A stretch of 59,240 bases of DNA, from positions 1 through 59,240 of the IMG/VR virus record IMGVR_UViG_3300036791_000126. The stretch is one strand, 5' to 3'. Origin of the DNA: a virus. The translations under genes and the position numbers were made by a program. Positions 4,636 to 48,837 of the stretch are shown piece after piece. Position 1 is the first letter of the stretch. The number at the start of each line of letters is the position of its first letter. The notes below the pieces were generated by a model, which saw only the letters and a program-made list of their open reading frames with translations, ran no database searches and had not been told where the DNA came from.

Positions 4636-5363
4636 TCGTATCGTTTAGAAACTATGAGCTGATTCCGAGATACGATGGAAAGCACTGGAATCAGCTAAAG
4701 ATCAACGAGTCCACCTCTGATATGGGGCCGTGGAATCTGATTGATTCGCAGGCTATCGCAGTTCTTGCGATTGATCCCGCTGATCCTGAGCCTCTCTACT
4801 TTACCACTGAAAAGGCGACTCTCGATGTCGGCATCGGTTGGTATCGGGTTGATCTTGTCGATGAAGATGGAAACGTCGAGCAGACAGAGCCAGTATTCAA
4901 CGCAGCGCCTATCGAGATTATGGCGACGCTTGATGATGTTAATGCTCACCTGGACGGCGATGTTATCGAGGCTACTGCGGATAACACAGATTTGATTCAA
5001 GTCTCAGCGGCTCGCATCGTTCGAGCGTATCTCAGTCGAGTAGTCGATCAGGTAACACTGATGTCATGGCAGACTCCCACCACGACGCCTGACACTATTC
5101 GTGAGATAGCCTCGATGCTGATTGCCGCTAGTCTTTACTTTCAGCTTTCAGCTAGAACGTCGCTGATTATCGATAATCAAAACTTCGCACAGCGGTTGTA
5201 CGATCAAGCAATTGCCATGCTACAGGCTATCGTTGAAGGAACTATGGTTATCGAGGGTGGCGTGGGTACAACCCCAGGCCCCTCGGTAGATGATCTTGAA
5301 GCTGTAGACTTCTTCCCGGTGGATGACACAGATAGAGCATTCACCCTCAGTATGATTCTCTAG
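4632..5363 (+). CDS. Head-tail connector / adaptor protein
   Basis: The protein has 243 residues and its ATG overlaps the previous stop (ATGA). The N-terminal ~90 residues form a small beta domain, ending in DLVDEDGNVEQT. The C-terminal part starts at ATLDDVNAHLDG and is a helical module (IRVRAYLS-like arginine helix, IREIASMLIAASLYFQLSA, YDQAIAMLQAI). It resembles the gp6/Mu gp36 type of head-tail connector that docks under the portal. Position before a morphogenesis protein and a tail-terminator-like gene fits. The N-terminal domain is an addition to the usual ~100-140-residue connectors. Confidence 0.7.
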   Translation: MIVSFRNYELIPRYDGKHWNQLKINESTSDMGPWNLIDSQAIAVLAIDPADPEPLYFTTEKATLDVGIGWYRVDLVDEDGNVEQTEPVFNAAPIEIMATLDDVNAHLDGDVIEATADNTDLIQVSAARIVRAYLSRVVDQVTLMSWQTPTTTPDTIREIASMLIAASLYFQLSARTSLIIDNQNFAQRLYDQAIAMLQAIVEGTMVIEGGVGTTPGPSVDDLEAVDFFPVDDTDRAFTLSMIL

Positions 5364-6862: not shown

Positions 6863-8298
6863 TGCCGGGTAGACCAGGTGTACTCGTAAGTCTGCTAGAT
6901 GTAGCTACACCAGTCTCAATTTCGGTTGACACTGGTACTTGGTTTGCGACAGGAACTACGGATCGTGGGCCTGCAAACGTAGCTATGCTGATGCAGAGTC
7001 TCACTCAGTTCAATACCGTGTACGGTGCAAGACAGTCTTACAGCGTACTGAGTGATGCTGTAGAAACTTTCTTCCGCGAGGGTGGACAAAATGTCTACAT
7101 CGGAAGAGTGGTTGGCCCAGGAGCTACAAGCGGATTCCTTAACTTGAATGACGCGGGTGCCGCTATCAGCTTGGTTGCTACAGCTTTCGGGCCTGGTGCA
7201 TGGTCGAACCAATACAAGGTTGGTGTGGTTGCCGGTGGTGCAAGCGGCTCATTCCAAATCCAGGTAACCGATATCAACAACGTCGTTCTTGAACAGTCTA
7301 GCGATCTGCTAACTCAGGGAGCGGCTGTTTCTTGGAGTCAGTACAGTAACTACATCAGAATCACGCTTGGCGCAAGTGCAAATAACCCGGCGAACGTCGC
7401 GCCTGCCGCGATGTCTGCTGGTAACGATCAAAGGGCGACTATCACTGATAACGAATGGGCCGTTGCACTTGCTTTGTTTTCACCAAGTCTCGGGCCGGGT
7501 CAGGTTTCTGAGCCTGGTAGGACAAGCTCGGTGGCTCACAACCAACTCAAGACTCACGCGGAAGCGAATAACAGGGTGTATCTCGCTGATCTACCTGATT
7601 CGCCCACGCAAGCAACACTTCTGTCAAGTGCTGCTGATTCAGTGAGTCGAATGGGTGCGGCGTTCTCACCATGGGTTATCATTCCAGGTGTTACAGTTGG
7701 AACGGTGAGAGCAATTCCTCCGTGTGCATACATCGCTGGCATGATTGCCGGTAATGATCCTGCTTACGGAGCTAACATGCCTGCCGCAGGTAACTTGGGT
7801 CAGGCATCATTCGTGACTGACTTGACTCAGCCTGATTTCACGGATGCGGTTAGAACCGCGCTCAACGCTGGTAGCGTGAATATCATCCGCAGACTGTATG
7901 GCGGTATCAGGAACTACGGATGGCGTTCACTCACAAATGCAGCGAGTGATCCTTCCTGGGTTGATTTCGGGAATGCGCGGCTTTTCATTGATCTGGCTGC
8001 TGAGTTGAATCTCGTGGGCGAGAACTTCATGTTCGATATGATCGACGGCCAGAACGGAAGTACGATCAACGCATTCGACGATGCTCTAGTTGGTCAGCTC
8101 ATGCTTCATTACAGTGCTGGTGAATTCTTCGGTGATACACCCGCACAGGCGTTTGCTGTCGATACAGGCCCCGATGTGAATACTCTCTCGACAATTGCAA
8201 ACAACGAGCTTCACGCAGTTTGCAGAGTCAAGATGGCACCGTTCGCCGAGGCGGTTATCATCCAGATCGTGAAGCGCCAGATCACTCAGACGCTGTAA
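6862..8298 (+). CDS. Tail sheath protein
   Basis: The protein has 478 residues. The N-terminal PGVLVSLLD segment, followed by VGTTDRGPAN-like and FFREGGQNVYIGRVVG segments, is typical of contractile tail sheaths. The C-terminal half has the conserved sheath layout: SWVDFGNARLFIDLAAELN, then MLHYSAGEFFG, then a final RVKMAPFAEAVIIQI strand. The sheath contracts on host binding to drive the tube through the envelope. Its presence fixes the morphology as myovirus-like. Tube and chaperone genes follow directly. Confidence 0.93.
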   Translation: MPGRPGVLVSLLDVATPVSISVDTGTWFATGTTDRGPANVAMLMQSLTQFNTVYGARQSYSVLSDAVETFFREGGQNVYIGRVVGPGATSGFLNLNDAGAAISLVATAFGPGAWSNQYKVGVVAGGASGSFQIQVTDINNVVLEQSSDLLTQGAAVSWSQYSNYIRITLGASANNPANVAPAAMSAGNDQRATITDNEWAVALALFSPSLGPGQVSEPGRTSSVAHNQLKTHAEANNRVYLADLPDSPTQATLLSSAADSVSRMGAAFSPWVIIPGVTVGTVRAIPPCAYIAGMIAGNDPAYGANMPAAGNLGQASFVTDLTQPDFTDAVRTALNAGSVNIIRRLYGGIRNYGWRSLTNAASDPSWVDFGNARLFIDLAAELNLVGENFMFDMIDGQNGSTINAFDDALVGQLMLHYSAGEFFGDTPAQAFAVDTGPDVNTLSTIANNELHAVCRVKMAPFAEAVIIQIVKRQITQTL

Positions 8299-12746: not shown

Positions 12747-15014
12747 ATGGCACAACCGTCTAAGAGCATACCAGCGATTCGTAAGCTAGAGCTTTCGCAG
12801 ATCGATCCTGCTGCCGTACAACGTGAGTTGATGGGTGAAGATGTCGGGATTCAAGCATTCATGCTGTATTTTTCTAGCAAAATACAGTTCGATGTTTCTG
12901 ATAGAATCGTGGACGCCACCATAGATCGTTCGATTGAAGCATCGTCCGCGCTTACCGTGGTCATCAATGACTACGATAGAGCTGTGCTGTCTAGTGGTCA
13001 GCTGACCAACAAGTTGGACGTACAGGTCGATGGTCTGTGGTTTAGACTCGCGGGACTCGATAAGTCGGGTGATGAGTTGACTCTCACGTTTGAGGATCGA
13101 GAGATTGCTGTGTTGAGAGAATATACCAAGTGGAAGAAGGTTAATCGCACAAACGCTACGAGAGCTGAGTTCGTTCTCAACCTGATTCGTGAGGTTAAGG
13201 AGTTTCACATTCCAGTAGTAATTCCTGAGCTTCGCACAATTCAGCCCGAAGAACGGTTCCCTGGTGATTTGATTGGCACAGACAAATTCATCAACAAGCA
13301 AATGGGAATCAACGTAGCCGCTTTCAACGCTAAGAGTGGACATCTCACTCCTGCCCAAAAATCTCAGATTCCCGCTTGGGCGCAAACTTATTATAAGAAT
13401 TTCATACCTACCGCAGGATTGACAGTCAAAGGTGTGCCTATCACCGACGATCAAAAAACTAATGCTGGTATAATAATCGGAGTCGGTAAAAGATTGGGTG
13501 CTACTCGCAAATGTATTGTAACCGCCGTGGCGACAGCAATCCAAGAAAGCACTCTGCAAAATATTGATTACGGTGATAAAGCAGGCCCAGATAGCCGTGG
13601 ACTATTCCAGCAGCGTTCGAGCTGGGGATCGCTAGTGGATCGTATGAATCCTGAAACGTCCTCAGCAATGTTTTACGGATCGCCCGGTCATGCTATACAA
13701 TATGATATAGATCATCCAGGTATTCCGGATTGGGAATTGTCTTATAACGTCCAGCACTGTGCTGCTCAAGATAAATACTTGCCTCAACAGTGGGTTCCCG
13801 AAGCGAACAATCTCGTAAATGCGTATGGCATGGTGGCGGCCGATAAGAGTGGAAACACTGAAGGTCTTGCTTCTCTCGCGAATGGAATGTTTACAGGTGT
13901 TTCAAATGCAATAAACAGTGGATTAGGAATCCAAACTCCTGGAGTAAGTACTAATGGCGGAGCATATTACTTTTTCCGCGGTAATATTGTAGGTCGTGGA
14001 AACAAGCGAGTACGCTTGGCGGAAAATAGTTGGAGTTGTATTCAACGTCTAGCGGGTGAAGTGAACTTTTCAGCTTTCTTTGTCAGTGGAACTTTCTACT
14101 GGATCAGTGAGGATCTACTTCTCAAGCAGCAGCCGCAATACAATCTCACTGAGTTCATGGATGGAATCATGGGCATAGATGGTTCCTACAAGCATCTGTC
14201 AAAAGCCGCACAGCTGACAGTTACCGCAGACGTTGGTAGATGGATGGCACCTCCGGGAACGTGTGTAGTCATTCAGAATATGGGGCCGTGGAATGGTCGC
14301 TGGATTGTGACTGAGTACAGTCGTTCTTTGTTTGATCTACAAGCCACCATCACACTCAAGAAACCGCGTCCTGTACTGCCTGAACCGCTAACGGGCAACG
14401 AAAGCGAACTAAAAACATGGTTGCCTGTATCCGGCCCTCCGGTGGTAAACCCGCACAGTGGCAAACCCATAGATCCAAACATAGGCATTGCAACAGGCGA
14501 TCTACCAGAGATTGCCAATCAGCTGTATAAAATGAATTTGCTTGGAAAATATCATGCCGATAATCCTGGTGACTTGACTGACATCACAGCAACGATGCGC
14601 GGCCAGAAAGTAAACTCACAATGTGGTGGACAAGTAACAATGGATACTCGCGTGTTCCAAATAATTCTTTGGCTAATCGGAAATGGCTACCGCATTGGAA
14701 CGTTTGCTTTCTGTTCGGATCACCATTGTGATAGCATGACTGGTCACGCGGGTGGACACGCAGTAGATATTTCATCAATTAATGGAATATCAATTAACCA
14801 AAATACACCACAGGCTAAGAACTTGGTTTTGCAGATCGACGATTTGTTGCATCATACTCCATCCGAACTCGCACCAAGACAGTTGATTACAGCAGGCTAC
14901 GGAAATCATAGAGATCCTCAATGTTTGGCTTACTGTATTCCCAACAACCCCGAAACCTACTACGGCGAAGCAACACTTAATGAACACTGTAATCACATTC
15001 ACGTAGGTTATTGA
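12747..15014 (+). CDS. Baseplate hub with lysozyme-like and M15-like peptidase domains
   Basis: The protein has 755 residues. Residues ~1-180 resemble the XkdQ/gpD hub fold ([15 protein letters not shown]). Residues ~230-325 look like a lysozyme/transglycosylase domain: [11 protein letters not shown] with a candidate catalytic Glu near 268, then [15 protein letters not shown]. Residues ~385-560 return to hub-type sequence. The C-terminal ~140 residues carry [10 protein letters not shown] and HCNHIHVGY, the two zinc-site patterns of M15 (VanY/DD-carboxypeptidase-like) peptidases. A tail-tip protein able to cut both glycan and peptide bonds would open a path for the tube. Both activities are inferred from motifs. 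Confidence 0.82.
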
Positions 15015-15028
15015 GGCGACACAACATT

Positions 15029-17848
15029 ATGCCATTTCTTTACGAAGATACCGAGTCTCAGCTTAACATCGATCGGGTGTGGGCTGCAACTATCGCCTCG
15101 GACGCGACGGATTTCCTCGATACCGTAGATGTCATTATTCCCAATCTTGATTCTAGTACGAGATGGGAAGATTGTCCGTGGCAAACGAGAGACAATTACG
15201 CTCTCCCAAAGAGAGGCGATGAATGTGTCGTTGTAATGGACAACGACATGAGAGTAACTGTCGTCGCTTGGTGGCCTCCCACACGTTCGCCAAAAATCAC
15301 GACATCACCATACTCCGGTGGTACACCGGCTAGCCCAATAGATATGGATATCTGGATTGGCGAGGATGCCGATGTTAACCACAACAGTTTCATGTTCCAG
15401 TATGATGCTGAGGATAGTCATTGGGCACAAATCGGTGCTGCTGGTAGTGGCCCTGCTGGCCCACCAGGCCCTACTGGCCCAGCTGGCCCCACAGGTGCAA
15501 CAGGTGCAACAGGCCCACAAGGCCCAACAGGTGCAACAGGTGCTAATAGTACAGTACCAGGGCCACCTGGATCAACAGGTGCTACAGGAGCAACAGGCCC
15601 ACAAGGCCCTATTGGTAATACTGGCGCTACTGGCCCACAAGGCCCCATTGGTAACACAGGCGCCACAGGCGCACAAGGCCCCATCGGTAATACAGGCCCA
15701 ACAGGAGCTACAGGCCCCGCGGGTGCTACACCAGGAGTTTCTGGTACACGTGTTTTTCGTTCAACTGCTCAGTCGATTCCTGCGAGCGCTTACACATCTC
15801 TGTCATTTGACACTGAGCGCTATGATGTTGACAATCTCTGGGTTGTCGGTTCACCAACGCGATTCACAATTGTCAAAGCTGGAACCTATGTCATAACGGG
15901 GCACATAACGTTTGCCGCGTCTACGTCGGGCACAACTCGCACAGCACGCATCTTGCAGAATGGCACTAACATTCTCGCCGAGGGTGGAATGGTTGGTGCA
16001 ACACTCGCAAGCGTCGCTGTCACAATCCCGATCAGTACAGTGGTGCAATTGGCTGTCAATGATTACGTTGAGTTACAAGCATTCCACACAGCAACTGCCG
16101 CCCTCAACGTTGGCCCCTCTACTGCGACAACCAATCGTGATGGTGCTGATTTCTCAATTGGACTCGTCGGTGTTCTAAGCGACCCACTCAAAGTTGATAA
16201 AGATGCTGTCAACACAGCTGCAACCCGTCTCGTTCAGAACATGCTCGTTGCAGGCGACGCGCAACCCGCATTCAAGATCGGTGGCGACGGAACAATCAGT
16301 TGGGGTGTAGGGGGTGCAACTGCACCCGATACGTCGCTCTATCGGAACGGCGCAAACTCGTTGTTGACAAGTAGCGAGTTTATCGTTTACAACAACGCAT
16401 TCACGTCGCTCCGCAATGACAACGGTGCCGCGCTGACCGCAGCTGCGCAGGGTGCTGGTCATTACAACTTCGTACTTGGTAACGATGGCTCGATGGAGTG
16501 GGGATCACCGACTACTGCTGCGGACGTGAACTTGTATCGCTCGGCTGCAAGCGTAATCAATATAAATGATCTTTCTGGTGGTGGCGGCCAGTTTAGTTTT
16601 GATACATCTGGTGGTGGTGGTTATCCAAGTTTTTATATCGCGGCCCCAGCGGGATCGGCGGGCCAGACCGGCGCGTGGCTTGATTTCAATGGTGGTAATG
16701 CAGCGTCTCATTGGGCACTCTTTACCGAAAACGACATTGAAGGTATCTGGTTCTGGGGACAGACTCCCGGCGTTGTCGCGGCACTGACATCAACCGAACT
16801 TGGATTCTTCAAGGCTAGCAACGACGGTGAGTATGTGTTTCAGATTGGGAAGGTAGATGGCAAGCTGAGCTGGGGGCCTGGTGGAGGAGCTGTAACAGAC
16901 ACATTCATGTACCGCAACGGGGCACGAGCACTCGGATCAAATGCGTCATTCAGTAACACGAATGCGTCTGTTAGTACCTTTGCTTTTACGTCGGTTGTTG
17001 ATGGCGATACGAACTACCGTTGGTACATGCAGGCGAACGGCAGCATGGGTTGGGGGCCAGGTAACGCAGGAGCTGATACGATCATGTATCGCTGGTACTC
17101 AAACGCGCTCTACACAAATGGTGACTTTGGTGTTGGCAAGGCGTTCCGCGCTTATCATGGCTCTCTCGATACCGCCTTCTATACGACTATAGGCGGTGAT
17201 GCATTTGGTTACCGCTTCGCAACGGACACGAATGGAAAAATGTCATGGAGTAGTGGTGCTGTTGGCGCCGACTTGAATCTCTATCGTGCAGCTGCCGGTG
17301 TACTCAAAACAGATTACTCATTTGCAACTGGCGCATATGGTACGAGTCTGCCTGCATCTCCTGTCGATGGTCAGGTTTATACGCTCGTTGACTCGACCAC
17401 CAACCCGACATACCAATGGACGTTCCGCTACAACGCAAGTTCAACCTCGGCGTACAAGTGGGAATACATTGGTGGTACTCCGGTACACGCATACGCGCTT
17501 GCGCAAGAAGGGATCGGCGCCTCGACGGGTTGGCAGGATAGCGCGACGATTCTTCATTTCATCGTGCCGCGAGCGGGCGAGTACGAGGTGATCGGGAACG
17601 CTCGCGCGTATGCCAATCCTGCATCACTCGTGCACATGGGGATCGCGATTGGGGCCGCGTCGCCCAATCCCCCCTATGCTTCGATCCTTATTAGTGGAGC
17701 GGGTGGTTACGGGCCACTCGTCCAAACAGTCGCTCTCGCCGGTCTTGCGGCAGGCAACGAGATTCGGATGCGTTACGCACAGGACGTAGGGAGTGCATTG
17801 TTGATTGACTCCCGCTCATTGATCGTTACGCCGAGAAGAGTGTCATAA
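15029..17848 (+). CDS. Baseplate spike/tail fibre with collagen-like stalk
   Basis: The protein has 939 residues from the ATG at 15029, which has GAGG upstream. The frame is open back to a TTG at 15011, which I reject. Residues ~1-125 resemble a gpV/gp45-like OB-fold spike base. Residues ~139-234 are Gly-X-Y collagen-like repeats ([13 protein letters not shown] units). Residues ~240-387 look like a C1q/TNF-like jelly roll. Five spaced copies of a short element (core DGxxxWG...D..LYR) lie between ~415 and ~745. A second jelly-roll-like domain ends the protein. This is the likely main receptor-binding fibre. Collagen-type triple helices suggest a trimer. Confidence 0.82.
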
Positions 17849-31353: not shown

Positions 31354-31379
31354 ATATTAGTTTACTTGCGAATCAAAAT

Positions 31380-31450
31380 GTTGGCTGAGGCCAGTGGTGC
31401 CAGGGTATGCGACACTCAACTGCTTACGTGTTGGGACAACCTCAGCCAAC
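31380..31450 (-). other. Intergenic hairpin before primase gene
   Basis: Bases 31380-31390 pair perfectly with 31440-31450 (11 bp) around a 49-nt apical region that can itself fold. On the minus strand ATTTTGATT follows; on the plus strand CTTTTTG follows. It may be an attenuator or weak terminator between the SSB-like and primase genes. Confidence 0.6.
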
Positions 31451-31476
31451 TTTTTGAGCCAGCTGCTAGTTAACCG

Positions 31477-39175: not shown

Positions 39176-39294
39176 AGGCTTAGTCAGACTAGTGAGGACA
39201 CCCCCTAAGGTACTCACTAGCCTGACTAAGCCTCGTCTGATTTTCACAGACGAGGCTTAGTGTGGCTACCGTTAGCTAGGTGTGGCTAGCTAAC
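39176..39294 (-). other. Three intergenic hairpins, two mutually exclusive
   Basis: Hairpin 1 pairs 39176-39196 with 39213-39233 (21 bp, one mismatch). Hairpin 2 pairs 39226-39239 with 39247-39260 (14 bp, perfect), so the segment 39226-39233 can join either hairpin but not both. Hairpin 3 pairs 39271-39279 with 39286-39294 (9 bp). No U-run follows on the minus strand. The geometry is that of an attenuator or RNA-processing region between two genes. Confidence 0.65.
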
Positions 39295-44688: not shown

Positions 44689-44741
44689 GGATTTTCACCT
44701 CCTTAGTTTTTAGTTGTGATTAGTGTTACTATGAGTAGCGA

Positions 44742-44801
44742 TGAGCCAGCGTCGGACTCGAACCGACACACCTTGATATCAGGGGTAACCTTTCCGGCTC
44801 A
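44742..44801 (-). other. tRNA-like element without a D arm
   Basis: On the minus strand a 60-nt segment starts TGAGCCG and ends TGGCTCA (7 bp including a G-U). An almost perfect T arm is inside: GTGTCGG, then loop TTCGAGT, then CCGACGC. The remaining ~23 bases can form only an imperfect anticodon-like hairpin containing TGATATC, and there is no D arm. It is too short for a normal tRNA, so it may be a decayed tRNA gene or a tRNA-mimicking structure. AACGGGAG directly precedes it. Confidence 0.5.
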
Positions 44802-44831
44802 CTCCCGTTGGGAAGTGTTAGACTTGTGTTG

Positions 44832-45122
44832 TTACTTGATACAACGAACTGCGAGAGCGATGACTCTAGAATCTTTCATGATACGTGCCGGAGTTTTATC
44901 ACTCACGACTATAGCGATCACCTGAGTAACCGTATAACGCTTCTCCGCCTGATTGACGAAACAGTTACAATAACTTATGTTATTGCTGCTGTAATCATTG
45001 CCAATACAACCCTTGACGATGGCTGCACGAACGCCATTCGGATATGAATAAGCTGACGCACTTGCAGCCATGGTTGCGGCAATGACAACAGCAGCACTTG
45101 TGGCTGCAATAGAAAGCTTCAT
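44832..45122 (-). CDS. Small secreted protein
   Basis: The protein has 96 residues, with AAAGGAGGTGTC before the ATG. The signal peptide is clear: MKLSIAATSAAVVIAATMAA, then an AxA-type cleavage site near residue 24. The mature part has four Cys (KGC, YCNC, RCI) and no known domain. A phage-encoded secreted peptide in the early region could alter the host envelope, for example in superinfection exclusion, but this is a guess. A pseudoknot-like structure precedes its ribosome site. Confidence 0.65.
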   Translation of the reverse strand: MKLSIAATSAAVVIAATMAASASAYSYPNGVRAAIVKGCIGNDYSSNNISYCNCFVNQAEKRYTVTQVIAIVVSDKTPARIMKDSRVIALAVRCIK

Positions 45123-45152
45123 GTGGTTTGTTTGACACCTCCTTTCTTTGAA

Positions 45153-45198
45153 GGATATAGTCCGCTAACGAGTCGAACGTTAGATATCCACTCGGACT
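45153..45198 (-). promoter_or_regulatory. Compact pseudoknot-like leader of the secreted-protein gene
   Basis: Five short segments lie edge to edge and one follows after a 3-nt gap. GGATAT (45153-45158) pairs with ATATCC (45184-45189). AGTCCG (45159-45164) pairs with CGGACT (45193-45198). CTAACG (45165-45170) pairs with CGTTAG (45178-45183). The first two pairings interlock, so the RNA can form a pseudoknot around the central hairpin. It lies about 20 bases before the ribosome site of the secreted-protein gene, where a switch would act. Confidence 0.6.
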
Positions 45199-45204
45199 AA
45201 CTTG

Positions 45205-45489
45205 TTACGCTACCTGAGCGGTCTGATCGGTTGTCGCGAGCTGCTTCATCAGATACGCTTCCTTAGGGAAACGCATCTTGGAAACCTCAAGCTTCATCGG
45301 ATCATACTGATACTTCTCACGTGCCCACTTGGACGTAGGCTTGCCAATGCGACAAGCCGCAATCACAATGAGCGGTGAACAGATCAGCCATCCGATAACA
45401 GCCATCGTTGTCCGACCTTTCTGGACAGCAATGACAGTACACCAGATTAGACCACCTAAGTAAGCGAGTAGAAAAATAACTGCACCCAC
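45205..45489 (-). CDS. Two-helix membrane protein
   Basis: The protein has 94 residues from a GTG start with CAACGGGAG upstream. Hydrophobic segments lie at residues ~3-22 (AVIFLLAYLGGLIWCTVIAV) and ~29-47 (MAVIGWLICSPLIVIAACR). A soluble charged C-terminus follows. It may be an early membrane modifier. No family is recognised. Confidence 0.65.
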   Translation of the reverse strand: MGAVIFLLAYLGGLIWCTVIAVQKGRTTMAVIGWLICSPLIVIAACRIGKPTSKWAREKYQYDPMKLEVSKMRFPKEAYLMKQLATTDQTAQVA

Positions 45490-45524
45490 TTAAGTTTTCT
45501 CCCGTTGTTTGTTGTTGGTTTGTG

Positions 45525-45701
45525 TTACGTTACAGCAGCGGTAATCTCTTGTCTTAGCATATCAGCTTCATCGGTAGTTACGTCCATCGACATAGCCAAA
45601 TCTTCGGCCATATCACTGATAGACATATCCGTACAACTATCGAACTCCGTTACGTACTTGTGCATGAGACGGAGTAGTGCAACACACTCTTCGTCAGTCA
45701 T
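45525..45701 (-). CDS. 58-residue acidic hypothetical protein
   Basis: A short gene starts at the ATG at 45701 and stops at TAA at 45525-45527, with CAACGGGAGCG some 12 bases upstream. MTDEECVALLRLMHKYVTEF begins a helical acidic protein, ending DEADMLRQEITAAVT. Regular codon use and the shared leader sequence support it. Confidence 0.6.
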   Translation of the reverse strand: MTDEECVALLRLMHKYVTEFDSCTDMSISDMAEDLAMSMDVTTDEADMLRQEITAAVT

Positions 45702-45734
45702 TTTAGTTGGACGCTCCCGTTGTTTGTGTGGTAG

Positions 45735-45828
45735 TTCAATAAGACAGTGACTTATTCGCTTAGGCGGGCCGCCTGGTTTAGGTGCGAACCTAGAGAGACA
45801 CTAGGACTTTGTCACTGTCTTATTCAAC
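45735..45828 (-). ncRNA. Structured element A: closing stem with three inner hairpins
   Basis: A 14-bp perfect stem (45738-45751 with 45811-45824, extendable past one mismatch) closes a 60-nt core. Inner hairpins are 45762-45766/45770-45774, 45779-45783/45788-45792 (4-nt loop) and 45789-45793/45801-45805; the last two compete for a few bases. On the minus strand the core contains AAGTCCTAG and CTAGGTTCGC, which recur in the element at 46614-46731. It lies in a ~320-base gene-free stretch. Confidence 0.55.
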
Positions 45829-45875
45829 TATTTGGTAAACAGTGGTTTGAGTGATTCGGTGTTAACTTTTGACAA

Positions 45876-45910
45876 CTCCGAGCCTCTCGTTTGAAAGGCT
45901 GCACAGGAGC
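45876..45910 (-). repeat. Dispersed CCTGTGC motif, copy I
   Basis: This intergenic copy shares an AAAGGCnGCACAGGAGCAG core (plus-strand view) with the copies at 42972 and 52847. It is hairpin-like: CTCC...GGAG outside, AGCCT...AGGCT inside. The rest of the gap to 46021 shows nothing else that I recognise. Confidence 0.6.
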
Positions 45911-46021
45911 AGAGTGGAACGATTGGTGGAAACTTAGCTATCTGGCTGGCCGCTTCACTAAGTTTTACCCCTGTCCACTTCTCTCACCGTACCAGTAGAT
46001 AACAGGGAACCACCGTGTTAC

Positions 46022-46588
46022 TTAGTCGTTGGGAGCAGGTTCACCGAGGAAGCTTACCTTCCTACAATCCCAATCATAAACTTCACGAGTGGTTGCAGGG
46101 ACAGCAGGGACTTCCTCGACACCAACGACCTTCTTTTCGCACACGACGTTACGAGAAGCAACGTAACGCGCTTTGGGACTCCGATACCAAGCATACTCGC
46201 CGGGCTTACCGGGGGTGGGAGCAGGCTTACCATCCAAGTACACGGTGACAACAAACTCATCACCCTTGTAGTCTTTGGTTACACCATGACCCAGCTTGCG
46301 AGCATGACGGACGATGCAACGGAGAATATCCTCCGTGGCCTCGACATCAACCTTGTCGTAATCAGTCGTGAGGCTTCCGTCTTCATTGACCTTCTTCGCC
46401 TGGACGGTAACGTACTCCGTCTGAGTCGAAGGATCATACGGAAGCGAGACTTCACCGTTAGTTGCGCGGTACAAGCTTTCCGCCCAAACCATGCGGATGT
46501 TAGTCTCACGATTACGCTTGGCGATGTCGTTATGCCAATCGTCCAGCTTGGAATCGAGGTCAACCGAAGTTGTGACCTCAGTTTCCAT
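46022..46588 (-). CDS. Hypothetical early protein
   Basis: The protein has 188 residues from the ATG at 46588 with GAAAGGAAC upstream. The helical N-terminus (LDDWHNDIAKRNRETNIRMV) is followed by beta-rich sequence (YVTVQAKKVNEDG, EFVVTVYLDGKPAPTPGKPG, YVASRNVVCEKKVVGVEEV). I know of no domain. It directly follows structured element B. Confidence 0.6.
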   Translation of the reverse strand: METEVTTSVDLDSKLDDWHNDIAKRNRETNIRMVWAESLYRATNGEVSLPYDPSTQTEYVTVQAKKVNEDGSLTTDYDKVDVEATEDILRCIVRHARKLGHGVTKDYKGDEFVVTVYLDGKPAPTPGKPGEYAWYRSPKARYVASRNVVCEKKVVGVEEVPAVPATTREVYDWDCRKVSFLGEPAPND

Positions 46589-46613
46589 TACTTGTGGTTC
46601 CTTTCTGTGGGTT

Positions 46614-46731
46614 GTAGGGTTAGTGAAGTGTAGTGAGGTTACTAGAGAGTCGCAGCTTGCCATTTAGGCAACCTAGCGCGTTCCGGCTAGGACTTCATCC
46701 CGTTCGGGTCACTACACTTCACTAGCCCTAC
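46614..46731 (-). ncRNA. Structured element B: 23-bp closing stem with three inner hairpins
   Basis: Bases 46614-46636 pair with 46709-46731 (23 bp, one G-U). Inner hairpins are 46657-46661/46667-46671, 46672-46677/46686-46691, and CCC/GGG at 46699-46708. On the minus strand its core reads AAGTCCTAG...CTAGGTTGC...CCTAAA, matching element A at 45735-45828. It lies between two minus-strand genes, just upstream of 46588, and is not a simple terminator since no U-run follows. Confidence 0.65.
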
Positions 46732-46752
46732 TTACCGCGTAGGGGCTAGTTG

Positions 46753-46953
46753 TTACACCAACATAACACACTTGACTTGCTCGTGGCTGTATCGAGGATC
46801 AGGCTTGGTGAGTCTTTCCTCATGAGTGAGGTATTTGCTGTACGTTGATTCATACACCATATCAACCAAGCTTGAAGTGTCGTACTCCATATGAGCGACA
46901 GGCAAGTCTTGCGGCAACTTGCTCAGTTGCTCGATAAGCTCCTTGACGGTCAT
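46753..46953 (-). CDS. Small conserved phage protein (MTVKELIEQL type)
   Basis: The protein has 66 residues with ACAAAGG upstream. MTVKELIEQLSKLPQDLPV is a start frequently seen in small actinophage and other phage proteins. The rest is beta-like and charged. Function is unknown. It is the first gene after the promoter at 47019-47047. Confidence 0.65.
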   Translation of the reverse strand: MTVKELIEQLSKLPQDLPVAHMEYDTSSLVDMVYESTYSKYLTHEERLTKPDPRYSHEQVKCVMLV

Positions 46954-47018
46954 TTGTACCTTTGTGGGTTGTGGGGGTTTGTGATTGACTTTTGTTGACG
47001 TTTGGGCCGCTGTCCCTT

Positions 47019-47047
47019 ATCTTAGCAGACAGCGACCCATTTGTCAA
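47019..47047 (-). promoter_or_regulatory. Extended -10 promoter
   Basis: On the minus strand there is TTGACA, a 17-bp spacer ending CTGC, and TAAGAT. Expected start near 47012, 59 bases before the gene at 46953. Confidence 0.85.
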
Positions 47048-47073
47048 GTTACTACGTGAGGCTTGTGAGTTTG

Positions 47074-47496
47074 TTACTCGCTATCGGTGTCCGTGGTGGA
47101 CTCGGAAACCTCCGTGGGGTGGTTTCCATTCGAGCTTGCAACCGGAGCAGCGAGGAGACAACGCGACTTGATGAGCACGAACACGGAACCCTCTCTTTGC
47201 ACGACATCAACGTCGTCTGCAATACCCATCTTTTCAGCGGCATTGCGGAAACCCTGGTAAACACTCGTCGGTGACTTGCGCGTGGTTACCTGGTCAAACT
47301 CGCCCGTGGGCTGATTTGTGTCTGGGTTCAGCTTAGGAACCATGACCGTGGGAGCAAACTCCATCGGCCAATCCTCGTAAGGATCGAAACCCAACTCATC
47401 GGAGTTATGATAGACTTCGGTGAGCTTCTCCTCAAACAGACCCTTGACGCGACGATTCGCATACAGTTGTGCGATCTTATCCTGAGTAAGCGGCAT
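47074..47496 (-). CDS. MPL-family protein, paralogue of 39286-39684
   Basis: The protein has 140 residues from the ATG at 47496. MPLTQDKIAQLYANRRVKG opens it. FEEKLTEVYHNSDE, YEDWPMEFAPTVM, TSVYQGFRNAAEKMG and SVFVLIKSR align in order with the paralogue. The C-terminus is Ser/Thr/Asp-rich. The duplication, ~7 kb apart in the same strand, suggests dosage or functional divergence. Function is unknown. Confidence 0.75.
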   Translation of the reverse strand: MPLTQDKIAQLYANRRVKGLFEEKLTEVYHNSDELGFDPYEDWPMEFAPTVMVPKLNPDTNQPTGEFDQVTTRKSPTSVYQGFRNAAEKMGIADDVDVVQREGSVFVLIKSRCLLAAPVASSNGNHPTEVSESTTDTDSE

Positions 47497-47521
47497 ATTT
47501 TTCACCCCCTCTCGGGGTGGG

Positions 47522-47839
47522 TTAGTGGTGAACTTTGTAATGACATTTCGAACACAACCACGTTACATCAAGATCGTTCGAATAGTCATTGTGGTGAATG
47601 TACAATCTTGTTTTGGAGGCACAACCTTCACATGAGCCATCAGCGGGAGGCTTGATTTCACCTCTTTTTACGGCTGCCCTCGTTCTTCTGCGTACTGCCT
47701 CTTTGTGGGTTTTCAGCGGAAGTTGCTTACTCTTTAGCTGTGAGAGAGGCGGCCTTTCATACGCTCCAGGCGGAACCTTCACTTCAGCTTTAGCCGCGAT
47801 TGCCATTATTTCAGCGATCTTATCGGGAGTAAGTGGCAT
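47522..47839 (-). CDS. MPL-family HNH-like zinc protein
   Basis: The protein has 105 residues. The start MPLTPDKIAEIMAIAAK is the shared N-terminus. The C-terminus CEGCASKTRLYIHHNDYSND then WLCSKCHYKVHH has the C-x2-C...HH...C-x2-C-H order of small HNH/zinc-finger proteins in phages. Whether it cuts DNA is not certain. The ATG lies where transcription from the -10 at 47846-47851 would begin, so the mRNA may be leaderless. Confidence 0.7.
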   Translation of the reverse strand: MPLTPDKIAEIMAIAAKAEVKVPPGAYERPPLSQLKSKQLPLKTHKEAVRRRTRAAVKRGEIKPPADGSCEGCASKTRLYIHHNDYSNDLDVTWLCSKCHYKVHH

Positions 47840-47845
47840 CCCCTG

Positions 47846-47856
47846 ATTCTAGCACA
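47846..47856 (-). promoter_or_regulatory. Possible extended -10 promoter, leaderless
   Basis: On the minus strand there is TGTGCTAGAAT, the same -10 type as the five strong promoters, but no good -35 at 17 bp. The expected start coincides with the ATG at 47839. Confidence 0.45.
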
Positions 47857-48182
47857 TGCCGGGGCGAACATGCGTTCTTACGACGCTCCGACAGGTAATC
47901 TAAGCCGGTCGGACTTAGATTACCTCTACCCGAGCTTCGTCGAACGTATGTTCGTATTCCCGAGTTTTACTAAACTACTTACTTATACTACTACTAATCT
48001 ATAATATAGAAGAATATTGACGTGTTCACAGTGAGCGAACGGTAAAGCTTACACTTTCCTTACAACTCTCTCATAATCCCTGCAAATCGGGCGATTTCAT
48101 CACGCAACTCACCCGAGGAACTTATACACGCTCATATATCCTAAGCGTCCGACACTCAAGGCATTTGTGGATTTCCACGAAC
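47857..48182. other. Gene-free region with nested inverted repeats and AT-rich tract
   Basis: Outer arms 47865-47877/47942-47954 (13 bp, one G-U) enclose a 12-bp perfect hairpin 47893-47904/47914-47925, with additional short pairings between them. To the right, 47957-48022 is AT-rich with direct ACT repeats and CTATAATATAG. Near 48171 there is GTGGATTTCCAC. No open frame of conviction is present. It could be an RNA structure, a protein-binding cruciform or part of an origin. Confidence 0.55.
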
Positions 48183-48690: not shown

Positions 48691-48722
48691 CACCTGCTCA
48701 CCTGCTCAGCTGCTCAGCTGAC
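48691..48722 (+). repeat. 8-bp tandem repeat, four units
   Basis: CACCTGCT, CACCTGCT, CAGCTGCT, CAGCTGAC in succession. Confidence 0.8.
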
Positions 48723-48724
48723 AT

Positions 48725-48756
48725 CATCTCAGCATCTCAGCATCTCATCATCTCTG
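48725..48756 (+). repeat. 8-bp tandem repeat, four units
   Basis: CATCTCAG, CATCTCAG, CATCTCAT, CATCTCTG. The end also forms a 7-bp hairpin (48746-48752/48756-48762). Confidence 0.8.
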
Positions 48757-48837
48757 ATGATGTCTACTGAGCATACCAGTATAAGGGATTCAATCACAAC
48801 GATTGAACGTGCCAACCATTGAATCTCACACTGGTAT

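Follow-up and report, generated by a model that had tools for sequence, protein, structure and literature searches.

Long stems, stem-loop cassettes, transfer RNA (tRNA)-like helices and LexA operators have all been described before, and the structures reported here, which lie between the early genes of an uncultured tailed phage, resemble each of them in part. The phage is represented by the IMG/VR virus record IMGVR_UViG_3300036791_000126, and the window analysed is this entire record of 59,240 bases. In the early messenger RNA of phage T7, RNase III sites of the R1.1 type are imperfect stems between early genes that are cut by the host enzyme; a stem of 12 bp can suffice for RNase III, and in R1.1 the mismatches set single- or double-strand cutting (PMC8708148). 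Cutting by the host enzyme is proposed here too for imperfect stems between early genes (elements A and B), although these stems exceed the T7 ones in length, are almost fully paired, their one mismatch falling at a preferred place, and enclose a conserved structured domain. The PeSL cassettes of T4-like phages are likewise stem-loops in repeated copies that stand where small early genes meet and bear traces of shuffling; unlike them, A and B have neither a terminator U-run nor a built-in promoter, and their interiors are large and structured. In the RNase III stems of bacterial ribosomal RNA precursors a long terminal stem also surrounds a structured RNA, the release of which is proposed here, whereas the present interiors are small, have no assigned function and occur many times per genome.

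The tRNA-like substrates of RNase P share with two further elements (1 and 2) an acceptor/T-arm helix of 12-14 bp and a canonical T-loop, but these elements lack a 3' CCA and a normal D or anticodon arm, and they are not recognised as tRNA. Element 5 resembles the LexA-controlled promoter of Bacillus phage GIL01 in having CGAACN4GTTCG boxes in a phage control region; its boxes are however further apart. In addition, GOLLD, ROOL and other phage or metagenome RNAs of Rfam are conserved structured phage RNAs without an assigned role, as here, whereas the present elements have no Rfam match, are much smaller and are embedded between early genes. The individual parts (phage RNase III sites, PeSL, tRNA-like RNase P substrates and LexA-controlled phage promoters) have precedents; for their combination, in which interchangeable structured interiors sit on stems of one preferred geometry and recur throughout the early operons of a phage group, no description was found in the open-access literature.

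An original prediction had placed five structures in a 3-kb stretch of the early region. All five are present, on the minus (coding) strand; as had been claimed, no U-run follows any of them, and a terminator scan lists none there. Two of these, A and B, are long-stem elements, shown here with the parts of B discussed below:

45732-45830, minus strand: element A; the arms 45732-45751 and 45811-45830 form a terminal stem of 20 bp, mismatched (G.G) at 45825/45737, with an inner helix of 14 bp and a structured interior at 45752-45810
46614-46731, minus strand: element B; the arms 46614-46636 and 46709-46731 form a terminal stem of 23 bp, mismatched (C.A) at 46725/46620, 16 bp from the loop
46645-46699, minus strand: interior domain of B (family II), 55 nt, found again in contig L045 at 5104-5218; its layout is GAUGAAGUC, a hairpin with loop CGGAACGC, a hairpin with loop UAARU, and GCUGCGACUCUC, that is, two hairpins on a closing helix
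46721-46750, minus strand: H1, a competing hairpin (ACTAGCCC..GGGCTAGT) that can form in place of B's outer helix

Compared with 200 dinucleotide shuffles each on the coding strand, the folds of A (z=-6.9) and B (z=-8.0) were equalled in stability by 0 shuffles. The window has five strong long stems with a loop of at least 25 nt, three shuffles have none, and A and B are the top two. Both stems (20 and 23 bp) sit between same-strand genes and have the length and position expected of RNase III sites; B counts as coding only through extension of an open reading frame (ORF) to an upstream start codon. A consensus scan, which is weak evidence for a phage with no assigned host, found neither terminator nor promoter in A or B. 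In a fixed-window fold scan the 3-kb stretch was not uniquely dense in structure, with windows too short to contain B and a step too coarse to be centred on A. A motif common to the interiors of A and B (AAGTCCTAG) was dropped, 9-base matches being frequent among unrelated interiors.

The nearer relatives of the phage are metagenome contigs only, retrieved through the terminase, two early proteins and a 94-aa early protein, and are cited here by L numbers. Isolated phages gave 0 DNA-level matches to the 10-kb region and none to the 143-aa protein, interior family I (described below) or element B, and their terminases have only about 30% of sequence in common with that of the window. Within the window ARAGORN finds no tRNA gene and no Rfam family lies above its gathering threshold; Rfam candidates at gathering or relaxed thresholds were either at chance level only, for example plant microRNA and small nucleolar RNA models, or absent.

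Among terminase relatives at about 40% identity or above, dozens of intergenic elements are built like A and B, with a stem of about 17-31 bp, in general outline about 20-24 bp, and interchangeable interiors of about 30-200 nt. Strong stems are nearly confined to the spaces between genes, with 35 of 43 outside long ORFs, in a fraction that makes up 17% of the sequence, and some of the remaining eight are coding only by extension of an ORF to an upstream start. Among the 29 stems that have both a mismatch and an outer helix, 14 place the mismatch at a distance of 14-16 bp from the loop, against 6.5 expected, with a P value (0.0016) that is a guide only as the stems are partly related by descent. 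G.G is the commonest mismatch at this preferred place, followed by C.A, A.C or G.A. In relatives the same arms are found again around other interiors and where other genes meet; in L045 and L022 arms stand in tandem, with neighbouring stems using common arms.

The check set beforehand was for compensatory changes in relatives, and these were found both in the stem families of A and B and in the interior of B. In the family of A (the window, L031 and three copies in L022) double changes occur in 9 of 19 pairs, while the outer UAGUUGAAU/AUUGARCUA is nearly constant and the G.G mismatch is constant. The family of B has double changes in 16 of 22 pairs, a count that holds, by inspection, without the row L107:6800, which is misregistered in the stem table. 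Moreover, isolated G.U pairs exceed isolated A.C on the transcribed strand (45 versus 26, P=0.016), in a strict count chosen after a raw whole-arm count had come out even (29 versus 34) because it included frayed ends and conserved mismatches. These comparisons indicate that base pairing in both stem families is under selection and that the elements act as RNA rather than DNA.

The interior of B gives the clearest evidence of a functional RNA in the whole finding. It recurs in a distant relative (L045:5104-5218), where of the 13 comparable pairs six are identical and seven show double compensatory changes, with no one-sided and no broken pair; 26 of the 28 unpaired bases are identical. Family II was aligned by hand because automatic alignment misplaced its loop, and so there is no covariance model for it. 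A second family of interiors, family I, is RNA-like and without assigned function; it was seen at L009:7072-7222, L017:1697-1806, L032:6460-6649 and L039:43-171, with two strongly conserved end blocks (CTAACTCAGCCGGATAA.. and ..GCTGTAACMAATGWCGGTGATG) around a variable middle. Its covariance model matched its four source members only, and an exact-pattern search of viral contigs likewise returned known copies only. In L009, family I takes the position that B has in the window, ahead of the gene for a 190-aa protein. Neither family has a known relative, and both are conserved enough for direct testing.

Several further observations were made on the contigs. A dense run of long-stem elements occupies L107:3897-7233, and ahead of several of them stands the same small hairpin (TAACCC-GNAA-GGGTTA), overlapping their outer arm. 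The more distant relatives L076 (202-2115) and L098 (8532-9258) have repeated long stems with similar arms, enclosing inserts that hardly vary in length (31-34 nt) but differ in sequence. L022 (IMGVR_UViG_3300037119_000871) encodes a tmRNA at 15383-15679 (Rfam 79 bits, ARAGORN concurring), which is followed immediately by two A-type long-stem elements, and a tRNA-like gene lies between early genes at L032:6852-6929 (Rfam tRNA 40.7 bits, unseen by ARAGORN). Both the tmRNA and the tRNA-like gene adjoin long-stem elements.

Elements 1 and 2 are of one kind, a coaxial acceptor/T-arm helix with a canonical T-loop and an insert on the 5' side:

44741-44802, minus strand: element 1, tRNA-like mini-helix closed by the T-loop TTCGAGT, with an acceptor/T-arm helix of about 13-14 bp and a 26-nt insert; the DUF6011 gene lies downstream
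45153-45199, minus strand: element 2, T-loop mini-helix (7+6 bp) with a pseudoknot, the T-loop TTCGACT and a 9-nt insert
45136-45145, minus strand: Shine-Dalgarno sequence AAAGGAGGTG, which belongs to the 96-aa gene and follows element 2 directly

The pseudoknot of element 2 arises from pairing between UAUCC (45153-45157) and the insert's GGATA. The claim that these two are structures stands for their form, which is beyond chance, and not for their folding energy, which is ordinary (z=-1.1 for element 1 and z=-1.4 for element 2, 200 dinucleotide shuffles). A search for an acceptor/T-arm helix with T-loop picked out elements 1 and 2 and nothing else in the window, each on the coding strand; in 200 shuffles the mean count was 0.005. 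The same search on both strands of 2.3 million bases of phage sequence gave five, namely elements 1 and 2, two tRNA-sized genes in L049 and one mini-helix in L102. Neither element is called as tRNA by ARAGORN or Rfam, and the tRNA-Sec model gives element 1 only 17.5 bits, compared with a gathering score of 47. By the mini-helix search, elements 1 and 2 are far from chance, with support from form only.

The reading that we favour, with a confidence just short of even, is that signals for RNA processing are set between the genes of the early operon on the minus strand, where the long stems would be substrates of host RNase III and the mini-helices of host RNase P. The sequences themselves show the stems with their covariation, the place preferred by the mismatch, the conservation of B's interior, the T-loop mini-helices and the SOS-box sequences; we infer that the region is transcribed, which enzymes act, which RNAs are released and that these have roles. 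Host RNase III would cut the A and B stems (about 20-23 bp, one mismatch at the preferred place) in the transcript, which would separate the flanking small messenger RNAs and free the structured interior as a small RNA. The T-loop mini-helices would mimic the acceptor/T-arm half of a tRNA and host RNase P would cut there, whereas element 5 would stand outside the scheme. The length and position of the stems fit what is known of T7 R1.1 (PMC8708148), and the tmRNA of L022 and the tRNA-like gene of L032 beside elements are consistent with processing. Somewhat more tentatively, the elements may be a new class of cassette, in which a stem of fixed geometry (an outer helix of about 5-9 bp, one mismatch and an inner helix of 14-16 bp) carries interchangeable structured RNAs, is repeated through the early operons of uncultured phages and makes a set of phage small RNAs. 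It is possible, to the same tentative degree, that some interiors in such a class are tRNA-like and others come from conserved families without an assigned role.

A number of results weigh against the processing proposal. The enzyme model does not predict the interiors, as RNase III sites need no conserved domain. No RNase III gene was detected in the phages themselves, and for this reason the host enzyme is assumed; bacterial genomes yielded no relative of the terminase, and because of this no host is assigned. After neither mini-helix is there a 3' CCA, so that the RCCA of an RNase P substrate is missing, and no homologues of elements 1 and 2 were found, nor one of the interior of A. Family II has only two known members, an exact-pattern search of viral contigs having returned the known copies only. 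The partial common descent of the stems, which limits the mismatch statistic, counts here as well.

Three other explanations of the long-stem elements were considered. It is unlikely, if not remote, that the interiors bind a ligand or a protein and act as regulatory domains, riboswitch-like or autoregulatory, in the leader of the next gene, where a switch between the stem and H1 would control translation or transcription. The high conservation of unpaired bases in families II and I would suit such domains, as would the location of elements directly ahead of ribosome-binding sites in several genomes and the significant pairing of the outer 5' arm with upstream sequence, a competing hairpin seen in 16 of 46 elements (11 of 46 on the 3' side). 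Nevertheless, calculated energies favour the long stem over the competing hairpin in 10 of 11 cases, by 0.5-10 kcal/mol, and the bistable-switch model with H1 is disfavoured since the energies mostly favour the long stem; for the same reason H1 is, on these calculations, likelier to be an intermediate of folding than an alternative that is stable in itself. The interiors moreover vary widely, and one sensor per gene is disfavoured because the family at a given position changes from phage to phage, being family II in the window and family I in L009.

The recurrence of the same arms around other interiors and where other genes meet speaks for cassettes of the PeSL type, in which stem-loops bearing promoters and terminators would shuffle small early genes between phages through their repeated arms. 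Repeated copies are indeed found, and the tandem and common arms of L045 and L022 point the same way. We know of no PeSL with a large structured interior, and this is counted against the explanation; selection on the unpaired bases of the interiors would also be left unexplained by it. The combination of terminator and promoter is moreover missing from A and B, which have no U-run and no embedded promoter. PeSLs shuffle small early genes in T4-like phages, as cited in PMC4503421, and we regard this explanation as rather unlikely for the present elements. In favour of sites for recombination or transposition at the DNA level (attC-like or IS200/605-type ends) stands the build of the elements, which are long inverted repeats of imperfect match whose apical parts vary, next to small genes. 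Such sites are very improbable and already disfavoured here: the records searched, some of them fragments, contain no tyrosine or serine recombinase and no Y1 transposase (PF00589, PF00239, PF01797), the wobble pairs favour the transcribed strand, and the interior of B is a conserved multi-hairpin.

The idea that RNA structure regulates or processes the early transcripts, with which the five structures had been put forward, is partly supported, and well so for A and B through their compensatory changes, whereas element 5, a nested inverted repeat at 47865-47954, is better explained by LexA-type operators:

47865-47878, no strand assigned: SOS (LexA/DinR-type) box, one mismatch to CGAACN4GTTCG
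47893-47925, no strand assigned: hairpin between the boxes, 12-bp perfect arms and a 9-nt loop
47941-47954, no strand assigned: SOS (LexA/DinR-type) box, perfect CGAACN4GTTCG

The 14-bp consensus CGAACN4GTTCG is the LexA site of Bacillus subtilis, and it resembles the promoter site of GIL01 (PMC4551915). Judged by these sequences, element 5 probably consists for the most part of two LexA-type operators within the control region of the early genes, its outer inverted repeat arising because two near-palindromic boxes complement each other. Perfect boxes occur in the same region of relatives, two each in L008 and L009, 100 bp apart, and one each in L010 and L013. That element 5 is instead an RNA structure like A and B is improbable; its fold is very stable (z=-7.4, 0 of 200 shuffles as stable) and the perfect 12-bp hairpin between the boxes is left unexplained by the operator reading, but both outer arms are SOS boxes and L009 retains two perfect boxes 100 bp apart with no long inverted repeat between them. 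Separately, L017 has perfect SOS boxes at 136-149, 1433-1446, 7749-7762 and 14159-14172; given these multiple boxes, a link to the SOS response of the host may be widespread in these phages. The reading of element 5 is corrected in this way from an RNA to a likely LexA operator.

Other structures, outside the original five, were found in the window:

31373-31457, minus strand: long-stem intergenic element, 18 bp with an A.A mismatch and a 49-nt loop
39176-39268, minus strand: intergenic element between two early genes, three alternating inverted arms forming two mutually exclusive long stems
46995-47047, minus strand: hairpin over a promoter-like site (TTGACA-17-TAAGAT at 47047-47019), z=-7.2

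Both stems of the second of these use the arm 39218-39233. At 44984-45096 an inverted repeat of 19 bp (89% complementary, fold z=-5.7) lies within the 96-aa coding gene. A repetitive GATGATGAG/CTGAG stretch at 48704-48773 has a weak resemblance to C/D-box guide RNAs; a Nop-domain protein is absent from the genome and from the records searched.

If the cassettes are cut from early transcripts, the phages would make an early set of novel structured small RNAs by means of the maturation enzymes of the host. Were this true, phages could move structured RNAs as modules within a standard processing frame.

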